A stretch of 64,000 nt of DNA, from positions 56,726,180 through 56,790,179 of the forward strand of contig CM040741.1 in assembly GCA_022829145.1 (NCBI GenBank). Reading direction: 5' to 3'. The position numbers were made by a program, and so were the translations under genes. Shown piece by piece: positions 22,370 through 32,645 of the stretch; position 1 is the stretch's first letter; each line of letters opens with the position of its first letter. The notes beneath the pieces were generated by a model. It had not been told where the DNA came from and did no database searches. It saw only the letters and a program-made list of their open reading frames with translations. This DNA is from Albula goreensis (Eukaryota; Chordata; Actinopteri; Albuliformes; Albulidae).

Positions 22370-25300
22370 AGGGAGAGTCAGAATTATTCCTGTAGATTCT
22401 GGTATGGGTGTGGATGACTGGGAGAGCAAATACAAAGTGCAAGGGAGGAGCGCTCTGAGTGAGTTCTTTGACAAGGAGGAGGAGCAGTGGGCAGATGATG
22501 ACGACAACAAGAGCATGATAATTCGCATGGCCAGGGACTGTCGTGAATCATCAGGGACTCATTTTTATGATGACATGGAAATGGAGTCAGTTCCTCCTGC
22601 TACCTACCCAGAGGAGTATGACACCATAGACAGGCGACGGAGGAAGAAGCTCCGTGACCAGGGAGGGGATGTCAGGCTGGTTTATCAGGGACCAGGAAGA
22701 TTTATAGAGGAATCTTACCCCCCTGACATCTCCAGCATGCCCTCTGTACAGCTTCTTCGCCACAAAAGAGGGGAGCAAGTTTTGCGGCAGGTAGCAGAGA
22801 TGGAAGAAGAGGAGGAGCAGATGACACCCTGCTTGCGCCCTTACAAAAATGGTCTGCTCTACAAGACTAGGATGTGGGCCAAAAACAAGTTGGAAAACAC
22901 TCTAGAAAACTATGTGGCATACCAGGAGGAGGAGGCTGCCAGGCTTAGGGCCAGCCTTGAGTGGGACTCGGAGGGCTCAGATGAACTGCAGTACTCCATA
23001 GGTTCTGAAGAGGAGCTGGAAGAGATTGCCTCATTAGCAGAGGCCATAAACACTGAGAATGGAAGGTATTACGGCCAGGGACGATATGGCTCCACATATG
23101 GAGCTCACACAGACAAGCTTCAAGGATACCGGGATAAGAAGAACAGTAAAGGGAAGATTGGGGGTTGGGCTCCAGAGGCCATGCTTTCTCCTGTTGAAGA
23201 GCCCCTCGATGAATATGTAGATCCTATGGATGAGTTGCAATGCCTGGTAGAGACGGTATCTGAGTACCTGGCTGAGAAAGAGGAAGAGATCAGCAAGTAT
23301 GGATCCCTTCCTAAGTCAAGTAAGTCAAGGTTGTCATCTCAGGGCAGCACGAGAACAGACTCTGTTGGTGATGACCAGAGCATTTCTTCAAAACAGGCTA
23401 AGGAGGAAACACCATCTGAGGCAAAGGGCTCAAAATCAGATGCCTCAACTGAACAGGGAAAATCAGGTGTTAAGAATGCTGTGAGTTCTTTGTTCAACTC
23501 TTTCACTGAAAAAGTTAGCTCAGGGTCTAAACAGCCTTCTGAGTCCACAGAGGCTGCAGCCCCAACAGAATCTGGCATCTCTAAACTTCTATCCTTCATT
23601 CCCAAGTCTACAAGCCCTACTCCAGTGGCTGTGGTCCCCCCAGCACAAGAACCTGCACCAGATAGAAAATTTTCCCTACAGTCTTTACTGCCTTTCCAGT
23701 CACCTGATGTCAAGGAGCCTGGGAAGAAGACTCCAGAGGGAAACCCAGAAGCTAAGCCTGCTGAAGCAATCAGTGAGAAGCCTCTGGAAAGCACAGCAAG
23801 CCAGCCACCCTCAATTGTAAATTCCATGTTTGGAAAAATAAACCCCCTAAAGCTTTTTTCAGGTGATGAAGCAGTGAGCTCCGTAGAACAGAATAAACTC
23901 CAAAGCAGGGGTGGACAAAGAGAGAGCTCTGTAGATCAGGCTAAAAGTGATGGAAGCTTGGCTGATGTAAAGCCTGTAGGAATGAATGGACCAGAACAGT
24001 TCTCTGTGATAGGCAGTGGGAGAAGACTTGAGAAAGCAGGAAGTGGGTCTCAGGATCCTCAAACTTCAAACAAACAGGGAAAACCAACAGAGGAAAAGTT
24101 TGAAATGAAGAATGCCCCACAGGATTTCCAAACTAAACAGGATGGAATGTCTGTGAGCCAGACAGAGGACACTGGGTTTTTTAGCCCTTTCAAGAAATCA
24201 ATCAGCTCACTGATTTCCTCGACACCCTCTGAAACCGCCACGAACCAGACCTCACCTGCCTCCTCTGTACTGTCTGTTTTTAGGTCAGCAGAGGACATTC
24301 GCGCTGAGAAACCAGAGGAATCTCTGGGTGGCAAGTTAAAGCTTCCCTTCCTCTCCTCTGAAAATGTGACAGCTCCACAGCCACCAAAATCAGAAGGAGG
24401 GGTGTTTTCTGGGCTCCTGAAATTTGCCTCTGGTGAAAACATCAGTTCCTCTAAGAATGTTTCCCAAGATTCAAACAAAAAAGACAGTGGACCTCCACAA
24501 GGTGAGGCAGTTACCTCGAATTCCAGTGTAAACCCTGAGACTTCTAAAACAAATCTGACAAACCGTGCTGCCCTCCTTGAAACACAGCCTAAAGGGAACC
24601 CTGAAACAGGTTGGTTCTCTAACCTCTTCAAGATGACATCTAATGAGGATGTACGTGCACCTCCTCAAGGTCAACAACAGGTAAAACCAACAGGTGTATC
24701 TTCCCCATCAATAGTCCCAAACCAGCCTGTTCCTGGCAATGAACAGCAACAGCCTAATAAGCAAATAACCTCAAACCAGCCACAGCCTGCTCACACACAA
24801 CAGCCACAGCCTCAACAAGGAGGGCTGTTTTCAGGACTCTTCAGTCAACCACAGCAGACACCATCTAATGTTCTGCAAACTCAAGGCGGTAATAATCAAC
24901 AGATGGTCAATCAAAATCAGAATACTCCTCAACAAAGTACAGTACCGCCCCAGACAGGAGGGTTCCTTTCGGGATTGCTTAGATTTGGCTCCTCTGATAA
25001 CGTATCTGCAAATAATCCACCCCCTCCTGCACAACAGCAACAACTATCTCCCAGTGGCCAAAGTCACCTGGCACAGAGCAATGTACAGCAATTCCCTGGT
25101 CAAAATCAGAATCCAAATCGACCACAGCAATCTGCAACACCCCCATCTCAACCAGGTGGTCTTCTCTCTGGATTGTTTAAATTTGCTTCATCAGAGAATG
25201 TATCTGCTAATAGCCCTTCTCCTCAGGTACAGCCACAGCAGGGCTCCCCTGGCAGTCAGCTTAATAAACAACAAACAGGCATGGTTAATATTCCTGTACA

Positions 25301-31300: not shown

Positions 31301-32645
31301 CATGTCCAAGATGTTCTCTGGACCAAGTGCCCCTGCCAAGACCTCTGCTAGCATATTCTCACCTGTTCAGTCCTCATTTTTCAAGTCCTCACCTGCCCCA
31401 GCTCCTCAAACACAACAGAAGAGTTCTTTCTTCAGTCTTCCTGGCAACCTCCCTACCGAGTCCCTGAAAAATGATCTCTTTGGAATGTTCAAAGTAGAAA
31501 CACCTAAACCTCCAGAATCCCAGCCACCATCTGTTCCCCCACACCAATCTAGTGTTAAAGATGGAAAACCAGCAGTTCTTGAGAAAGATGTAAATCAGAC
31601 ATCACCAGGTGGTGAAGGATCAGTGTCATCTCTACCTGATGGTGTGGCTAAAAATCAGGCAAAAGCAGCAGAAACAGACTGTCTTACTGAAGTCTTACCC
31701 AAAGCTGCAGATGTTTTACCTGGAGAAAATGCTGAAGTGCCTCAACTAACAGCTGAAATGGACACATCAGCTTCCACAAGGCAGTTTGGTGATACTACTA
31801 AGAAGGAAAGCATCAATTCTGAGGTAGATGTCATACCTGAAAAACCTATTATTTTGGGAGAAGTTGAGGCTAAGGGTGTGGACAAATCTGAGCCATTGCT
31901 GGAAAAGGTAGAGAAGGTCCCTCCAGCTGACAAACAACCTCAGACTGCAGAACCGCCTCCTACAAAATCCCTGTTTGACATGCCTGGCTTGTCTGCCTCA
32001 AAGCTTGGTTTCATGTCTGCATCTGGTGACGGAGGGAAGTCTTTTGGATCCTTCTTCTCCTCTCCACCATCCATTCCAAAAGGCCTGCCTCAAACAGATG
32101 GAGGAGGTCTTATCTCTGGCTTCAAAGCCTTATCTGCTGGTCTTTTTCAGGAACAGAATACTACAGCAGCAAAGGAGGAATCAATGGCAGCCTCAATGTT
32201 TGGGAAGAATTTAGGTTTCCCATGGCAAAAAGACACTTCCGAGCCACCTATGCCACAAGAACCCCCAGTCATCACCACCCAACCCAAAGCTACAAATGGC
32301 AGACCCAGTGAGCCTGAAAAACCCAAGTCAGAGTTAGGGCACAGCAACCAAAATAACAGTGAAGTTAAGGAACCCAGTGATGGGATCCAAGAAGCTCAAA
32401 ACGTAGATAAGAGCCAGGAAAGCAATACACTTCTCAAGGAAGAAATGATAGGTCCTGTGGACAGCATAGCCAAACCGCAGGTACATATCTCCCCACCTGA
32501 GTCAGACCAGTTGCTCTGCCAGTCCAAAAATGGGAAGGACACCCTTTCCGAACCCTTATCTTCTGCAGATCCCACCTTAGGATTGCTACAGGACAACCAG
32601 TCGAAGAAGGACCTTTTGAGTTCAAAAAGGCCAGTAGGAGCATAA
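22370..32645 (+). CDS. unc13b: Giant exon of unc13b (>3400 codons, disordered)
   Basis: One open frame runs without interruption from before the ATG at 22404 to tandem stops TAATAA at 32643. A 10-kb stop-free stretch in AT-rich fish DNA can only be coding. Acceptors at 22354 (ACAAG) and 22369 (CATAG) both leave the phase needed by the 20100 donor. I chose 22370, but 22355 is equally in phase.

Counting from ATG 22404:
- 1-300: charged and partly helical, with MGVDDWESKYK and RRRRKKLRD, helices around 152-220 and 272-300.
- About 660-1350: some 13 copies of a GLFSGLFKFASSENVS-like motif in Gln/Pro linkers.
- About 1360-1960: Tyr/Trp-rich core with PxDLS-like motifs.
- 1970-2380: Ser/Pro/Gln-rich with LFxxIxDF variants.
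- About 2375-2770: nine GKGLFSMFSGPS repeats.
- The remainder is Glu/Lys/Pro-rich.

It is predicted to extend the Munc13 linker as a flexible scaffold. I recognise no catalytic domain. Function is inferred only from position. Confidence 0.9.
24394..26450 (+). repeat. unc13b: Protein repeat array A: GLFSGLFKFASSENVS motif
   Basis: About 13 degenerate copies of [G][L/F/I][L/F]SGL[F/L]K[F/L][A/S]S[S/D][E/D][N]VS, spaced roughly 55-62 residues in the best part (starts near 25154, 25340, 25515 and 25678). Linkers are rich in Gln, Pro and Asn. Each copy is a short amphipathic, Gly-Leu-Phe hydrophobic patch in a disordered background. One unit (near 25928) is a fresh local duplication of FKSSSLxSASRQQ. 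The spacing suggests a sticker-and-spacer polymer, but partner and function are unknown. Confidence 0.85.
26480..28290 (+). other. unc13b: Central Tyr/Trp-rich region of the giant exon
   Basis: Composition changes sharply from Gln/Pro linkers to Tyr, Trp, Asp and Glu. The densest part (27510-27990, residues about 1703-1863) reads ESEWYQQWLSLLEQGMWWP, then alternating aromatic stretches such as GYFVYTDEEYIYALL and QYVYTYTPEGEPWGYEQG. These resemble short beta hairpins and are the only part of the exon that looks folded. The Tyr repeats loosely recall OCRE-type domains, but I would not assign that. Four PxDLS-like motifs lie in or beside it: AMDLS (27462), PLDLS (27849), PLDFS (27957) and AVDLS (28053). 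Confidence 0.7.
29520..30700 (+). repeat. unc13b: Protein repeat array B: GKGLFSMFSGPS motif
   Basis: Nine copies of [G/S][L/I][F/L]S[M/L][F/L][S/T/G]G[P/S]S, usually preceded by PKExPGK and followed by Pro/Gln/Ser linkers. Every second unit or so includes a SxLxGILxGxSG spacer. The period is about 37-45 residues, tighter than array A. A tenth, separated copy occurs at about 31310 (KMFSGPSAP). Strong similarity among units at DNA level suggests more recent tandem duplication than in array A. Confidence 0.85.

Follow-up and report, generated by a model that had tools for sequence, protein, structure and literature searches.

How a stop-free reading frame of more than 10 kb comes to lie inside a Munc13 gene, and what kind of protein it would give, is the question raised by a stretch of DNA from the actinopterian Albula goreensis (GenBank assembly GCA_022829145.1, contig CM040741.1, positions 56,726,180 to 56,790,179 of the forward strand). 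The window is this whole stretch of 64,000 nucleotides, and all coordinates are counted from its first letter. The frame is protein-coding and would belong to unc13b, the gene of Munc13-2. A giant Munc13-2 tethered to synaptic ribbons or CtBP-family proteins is the reading preferred here, and as a whole explanation it is given a rough probability of 0.35.

22355..32642, plus strand: giant coding exon; open frame, closed by the TAA at 32643-32645

The frame is open on the plus strand from 22350 to 32642 and measures 3431 amino acids from stop to stop, while the five other frames hold 113-281 stops each over the same stretch. The original prediction, made from the letters alone, of one stop-free frame with more than 3400 residues is therefore correct in both respects. 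The frame is the longest of three in the window with at least 250 amino acids, and the probability of 3429 stop-free codons, computed from the base composition, is about 10^-81. The GC content is 42-47% across 22001-32000 (five 2-kb rows); of the remaining 27 rows, 20 have 37-41%.

Comparison of the giant stretch with itself by blastn, which is blind to frame, gave 35 matches, and all 35 were offset by a multiple of 3; these matches overlap one another and hence are not independent. In these matches, codon positions 1, 2, and 3 mismatch at rates of 0.33, 0.19, and 0.50. For comparison, three control stretches of intron had 8 of 24, 3 of 9, and 5 of 18 self-matches at offset 0 modulo 3. Within the open frame, the ratio of nonsynonymous to synonymous differences (pN/pS) is 0.31 for repeat family B (9 copies of 12 residues, all listed copies) and 0.25 for repeat family A (11 copies of 8 residues), or 0.48 for the latter over 15 residues. 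The two shifted frames of the repeat motifs give 0.76-1.0 and 1.8-10.9, and the best-preserved copies alone give 0.25 (eight of nine in family B) and 0.22 (six of 11 in family A). The pN/pS test is biased toward low pN because the copies were picked by amino-acid motif, a bias from which the frame-blind self-match test is free.

A codon score (log-likelihood ratio, LLR) was trained on 22404-31500 versus introns. Outside the training set it is positive in the nine 120-base rows of 31500-32579, and the last 54 codons have a mean LLR of 0.24, which was matched by none of 3000 intron segments with stops removed. In the 55 codons after the TAA the score drops to -0.85. Near the 5′ end, four of the five 60-base rows of 22400-22699 score above zero.

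The idea of a chance open frame or a decayed repeat without protein product could draw on the lack of family matches: Pfam gave no family at E up to 10, for the frame whole and as four pieces, and the sole PDB match had an E value of 3. Relatives were also absent from prokaryotic contigs, with the aromatic piece and the N-terminal part as queries, and from viral contigs for the whole frame, as expected of such collections. Rfam gave no match at gathering score anywhere in the window. The chance idea is already contradicted by the stop statistics, the repeat pN/pS, the in-frame self-match offsets, and the third-position bias, and its probability is negligible. The giant frame is protein-coding, with hardly any room for doubt, and has almost certainly been maintained as coding for a long time.

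The following exons place the frame within its host gene.

7331..10858, plus strand: C2A-domain exons (7331-, 8733-8856, and 10785-10858), matching 2cjs
19878..20100, plus strand: upstream unc13b exon; exits in phase 2 with a weak donor (TAG/GTATAC, score 2.9)
33792..34100, plus strand: the ordinary unc13b exon that comes next; phase 2 at both ends, used if the giant exon is skipped
34351..34438, plus strand: exon after that one, which carries WLKAINKVRVQLQE, presumably calmodulin-binding; exits in phase 0

The 103-residue join of the three C2A exons matched the Munc13-1 C2A structure 2cjs_A (E 1.2e-46, residues 1-97) and 2cjt_A (E 4.4e-34). These matches support the assignment of the host as a Munc13 gene with Munc13-1-like C2A exons upstream of the giant frame. 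The region between C2A and the calmodulin-site exon is taken to be the Munc13 linker, and the stretch at 34351-34438 is presumably the calmodulin-binding one. The gene is assumed to be UNC13B rather than UNC13A or UNC13C from the linker sequence and from a large b-type-like exon at 53636-56108. The exons at 60511-60589 and one ending at 63345 presumably form the run-up toward the C1 domain, and the exons for C1-C2B-MUN-C2C are presumed to lie beyond 64000, outside the window. The exon ends 8856, 10858, 20100, 34100, 34438, 56108, 60589, and 63345 are the authors' own frame reading, the phases were worked out by hand, and the splice scores come from a simple consensus matrix. The eight ends score 2.9-11.6 as donors, seven of them at least 4.36. 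Since the phase is 0 at the exit 10858 and 1 at the entry 19878, at least one further small exon should lie between them.

22220..22345, plus strand: polypyrimidine tract, by composition, before the acceptor 22355 (alternative 22370)

On the entry side, 83% of the 116 bases of 22230-22345 are pyrimidines; a single further place in the window, upstream of a C2A exon, is as rich or richer. The AGs at 22353-22354 and 22368-22369 both give a phase-2 entry that matches the donor at 20100, as was originally proposed. The acceptor scores are 5.4 for 22355 and -2.4 for 22370, with 9.65 for the acceptor at 33792. Splice entry into Munc13-2 is likely, and these sequence signals make it highly probable that the giant exon is part of unc13b transcripts. 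The first ATG of the frame, at 22404 (GGTATGG), has a strong Kozak context with G at -3 and +4. Translation could still start there, because the acceptor score is modest and the codons before the ATG are not clearly coding. An independent gene of one exon, lying within the unc13b intron in the same orientation and running from the ATG at 22404 to the TAA at 32643, would account for this Kozak context, for a coding signal that begins at about 22400 with none before it, for a possible poly(A) signal downstream, and for the absence of a good exit donor. It would leave unexplained why a pyrimidine tract ends just before two in-phase acceptors, and no CpG-rich promoter-like stretch lies upstream (observed/expected 0-0.22 over 21000-22499); such a nested gene is improbable.

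32300..32642, plus strand: 3′ part of the giant exon; the coding signal reaches the stop, with candidate donors inside
33005..33010, plus strand: AATAAA, a hexamer match and candidate end of a terminal-exon transcript

The exit side is less clear. The original prediction had the exon insert its segment into Munc13-2, which is not borne out, since no good in-phase donor leads to 33792 and the coding signal reaches the TAA. Its giant C2A-bearing isoform is upheld in one half: the frame lies downstream of the C2A exons and has an in-phase entry, but the junction to the C1-C2B-MUN side lacks a good donor. The best in-phase GT site between 31000 and the stop is the donor 32326 (CAA/GTCAGA, phase 2, score 3.6), and the best GC-type donor from 32000 is 32629 (AAG/GCCAGT, phase 2, score 3.4), 13 bases before the stop. 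In-phase GT donors scoring at least 4.3 occur in the giant exon only at 23296 and 24283. The better GT donors 32307 (5.7, phase 1) and 32480 (5.5, phase 0) would shift the frame into 33792, and 32480 is compatible only with an exon that comes after 34438. An intermediate exon that restores the frame was sought in 32650-33760; the thresholds used gave two candidates, 32733-32818 (entering in phase 0) and 32776-32818 (entering in phase 1), both rejected as unconvincing in composition by eye. Very strong consensus donors (score 11.1), out of phase for 33792, lie inside the giant exon at 24501 and 29274. Because of them, full inclusion of the exon would need cryptic-site repression, which is described for RBMX and ultra-long exons (PMC11446547).

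The giant exon may thus be internal, with a weak or GC donor, or terminal, without MUN. Both models stand because coding reaches the TAA, the in-phase exit donors are weak, and AATAAA is not rare. That the giant segment is joined to C1-C2B-MUN is slightly better than an even bet from the splice signals. As an alternative last exon, it would instead give C2A plus the giant arm, ending at the TAA at 32643 without C1-C2B-MUN, and this product would serve as a scaffold or compete with full-length Munc13-2; both the form and this role are doubtful. The coding signal that reaches the TAA and stops there fits such a form, as do the T-rich stretch downstream of the AATAAA at 33005 and the out-of-phase position of the top GT donors near the end. 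A second AATAAA overlaps the stop, at 32644, and these hexamers are common by chance in AT-rich DNA such as introns. Weak donors exist in the same gene, as at 20100 with 2.9, and the in-phase sites 32326 and 32629 could serve. Human UNC13B has a very long reference transcript in which the C-terminal domains are kept, and this also counts against a terminal exon. A precedent for the terminal form is the C-terminally truncated Piccolino of ribbon synapses (PMC3735604). If the terminal form were true, no earlier Munc13 scaffold without MUN would be known to the authors.

The giant segment itself, here called the arm, is made up of regions of different composition.

22404..23369, plus strand: charged N-terminal part, by composition
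23574..26447, plus strand: array A, a Gln/Ser-rich part with repeats of the GLFSGLFKFASSENVS type, by repeat motifs
27492..27839, plus strand: aromatic-rich possible small domain, by low-confidence models
29592..30680, plus strand: Pro/Ser/Gly-rich array B with the KGLFSMFSGPSP motif, mostly at 38-residue spacing, by repeat motifs

Residues 1-340 of the arm form a charged head with a net charge of -22. They are followed by the Ser/Gln/Pro-rich residues 340-1400 with the motifs of array A, by the aromatic-rich residues 1400-2000 (Tyr 8%, Trp 3%), and by the Ser/Pro/Gly-rich residues 2330-2800 with array B; the tail beyond array B has a Ser/Pro/Lys/Glu composition. The originally noted organisation in repeat families is confirmed by 14 GLFSGLF-like and 20 LFSMFSG-like matches (the sets overlap), as the maxima in 500 local shuffles were 1 and 2. 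An in-frame 48-base tandem duplication (2.0 copies, 87% matches) is seen at 25880-25976. By a crude disorder index, 71% of the arm windows are unfolded, which bears out the predicted disorder for most of the arm; residues 1400-2000 have another composition and could be partly folded. Here, in the middle of the segment, aromatic residues abound, and it is not simply of low complexity. Single-sequence AlphaFold2 models of it, with a mean predicted local distance difference test score (pLDDT) of 36 for a longer piece and 45 for the piece 27492-27839, hint at a helix followed by strands, at a quality too low for searching by fold.

26541..28067, plus strand: six PxDLS-like motifs (TLDLR 26541, VLNLS 27237, AMDLS 27462, PLDLS 27849, PLDFS 27957, and AVDLS 28053)

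Between the two repeat arrays lies a cluster of motifs that resemble PxDLS. The pattern [PVAMT][LVIMEQF][DN]L[STR] has five matches in the arm, TLDLR, VLNLS, AMDLS, PLDLS, and AVDLS, and the relaxed pattern [PVAMTS][LVIM][DN][LF][STR] adds PLDFS; all six fall within residues 1398-1906. None of 3000 local shuffles reaches either count (shuffle means 0.40 and 0.39). Among 120 position reorderings over residues 1380-1960, the PxDLS order alone reaches five (mean 0.18), and this order has no match in the rest of the giant frame or in the 846-residue frame at 53636-56176. Clustering beyond chance is thereby supported for a motif class that was picked post hoc.

The preferred reading builds on this cluster. 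A giant alternative unc13b exon would be spliced after the C2A-bearing upstream exons and would encode an arm of some 3400 residues, disordered for the most part and arranged as the charged head, the Gln/Ser-rich array A, the aromatic centre with the PxDLS-like motifs, and the Pro/Ser/Gly-rich array B. The cluster would make multivalent contacts with CtBP-family proteins at their peptide cleft, with the RIBEYE B-domain of synaptic ribbons as the main partner, and the hydrophobic repeats would be stickers for self-association or for vesicle or active-zone partners. In this way, the isoform could bring C2A, plus the MUN priming domain if the exon is internal, to the ribbon or to a CtBP-rich active zone. 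The transcript, its exit splice, the CtBP/RIBEYE binding, and the location of the isoform are what we infer.

A RIBEYE/CtBP-tethered giant Munc13-2 is proposed because the cluster coincides with two findings from other work. CtBP1 and CtBP2/RIBEYE are bound by residues 1653-2087 of Bassoon and by the homologous part of Piccolo (PMC4709825), in the case of CtBP2/RIBEYE by way of motifs like these, and retinal ribbon synapses, which are without Munc13-1, rely on ubMunc13-2 (PMC7660176). A degenerate GLDLSKK recruits CtBP, according to the title of a reference cited in PMC3671672. Binding of CtBP or RIBEYE by the arm is a tentative suggestion from its motifs. It is less likely still that a ribbon-specific Munc13-2 uses its six PxDLS-like motifs to tie the priming factor to RIBEYE, with the CtBP-family NAD(H) sensor setting the number of Munc13-2 molecules there.

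The PxDLS-like motifs could also be incidental. The exon would then be internal with C1-C2B-MUN, and its product would be a generic sticker-and-spacer condensate or a vesicle-capturing arm. Two large sticker arrays under protein-level constraint and the high share of unfolded windows are in keeping with such an arm, and the motif cluster is left without explanation by it. Windows like amphipathic lipid packing sensors (ALPS), by the authors' own criterion of uncharged S/T/G-rich amphipathic helices, are almost absent: there are only two, both outside the main arrays, compared to a shuffle mean of 0.07 and a maximum of 2, and an ALPS-like vesicle-sensor arm is not supported. The generic arm is a possible explanation and a rather unlikely one, and the scaffold or condensate arm of the original prediction is a guess.

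Several points weigh against the preferred reading. Only one of the six motifs, PLDLS at residue 1834, is a strict P.DL[ST], and 404 of 3000 shuffles reach that number. Both the motif class and the segment for the reorderings were chosen after reading the sequence, and the shuffles control composition, not choice. In mouse photoreceptors, transmission was hardly changed by the loss of Munc13-2, and inner hair cells reportedly function without Munc13 (both PMC7660176). A RIBEYE-binding PxDLS-like peptide caused no acute disturbance of release (PMC7699581). At the DNA level, the exit of the giant exon has no good in-phase donor to 33792, the 5′ row 22520-22579 scores negative for coding, and the 16 codons from 22356 to the ATG at 22404 resemble intron more than coding sequence, with 3.6% of coding windows scoring as low and 21.8% of stop-free intron windows scoring as high.

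The organisation of priming factors at ribbon synapses is still a question, and Munc13-2 loss is surprisingly mild there. With its RIBEYE-type docking motifs, a giant Munc13-2 arm would connect the priming machinery to the ribbon in a concrete way that can be tested. Studies of "ubMunc13-2" by antibody or knockout may have overlooked a protein of about 5000 residues, or one without MUN, or may have failed to tell it apart.

Elsewhere in the window, a second large open frame of 846 residues spans 53636-56176, with the donor CAG/GTATCG at 56108; it gave no significant PDB (best E 1.8) or Pfam match. Its part 53636-56108 presumably corresponds to the brain-specific first exon of bMunc13-2. A minisatellite with a unit of 32/64/96 bases occupies 190-1036, in a stretch with a GC skew of 0.27. 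TG and CA dinucleotide runs are found at 18282-18337 and 39269-39342, and 42001-44000 has a GC skew of 0.29, unlike the adjoining intron.

Among the matches listed in a search of the open-licence literature, which covered titles and abstract openings, a giant UNC13B/Munc13-2 exon is undescribed, and a description elsewhere is quite possible. The string UNC13 is absent from the long-exon papers PMC12457776 and PMC11446547. As far as these searches go, the CtBP/RIBEYE reading of a giant Munc13-2 is new.

Compared to ubMunc13-2/UNC13B, the locus has the same Munc13 C2A exons upstream, and the giant exon lies within what is taken to be the linker that joins C2A to the exon of the presumed calmodulin site. 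In contrast, passages of PMC7660176 and PMC8762327 name only ub- and b/br-Munc13-2 as variants, without such a segment. Another large single exon of the same gene, here at 53636-56108, is taken to be that of bMunc13-2. It differs in that it presumably replaces the C2A N-terminus, and it is not similar to the giant arm (best E 0.38), which leaves a common origin of the two unsupported. Giant ankyrin-G (480 kDa) is likewise a neuronal protein that gains a huge segment from one very long exon (PMC5135030). Ankyrin resides at the axon initial segment, and a function has been demonstrated for its giant form; the likeness is one of kind. Bassoon and Piccolo were compared through Pfam and PDB only, with no match, and differ in that the giant arm is here attached to Munc13. 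They resemble the proposed isoform in their great size, as scaffolds of the active zone, and in having PxDLS motifs for CtBP/RIBEYE, and Piccolino adds to this the example of a truncated isoform specific to ribbons.

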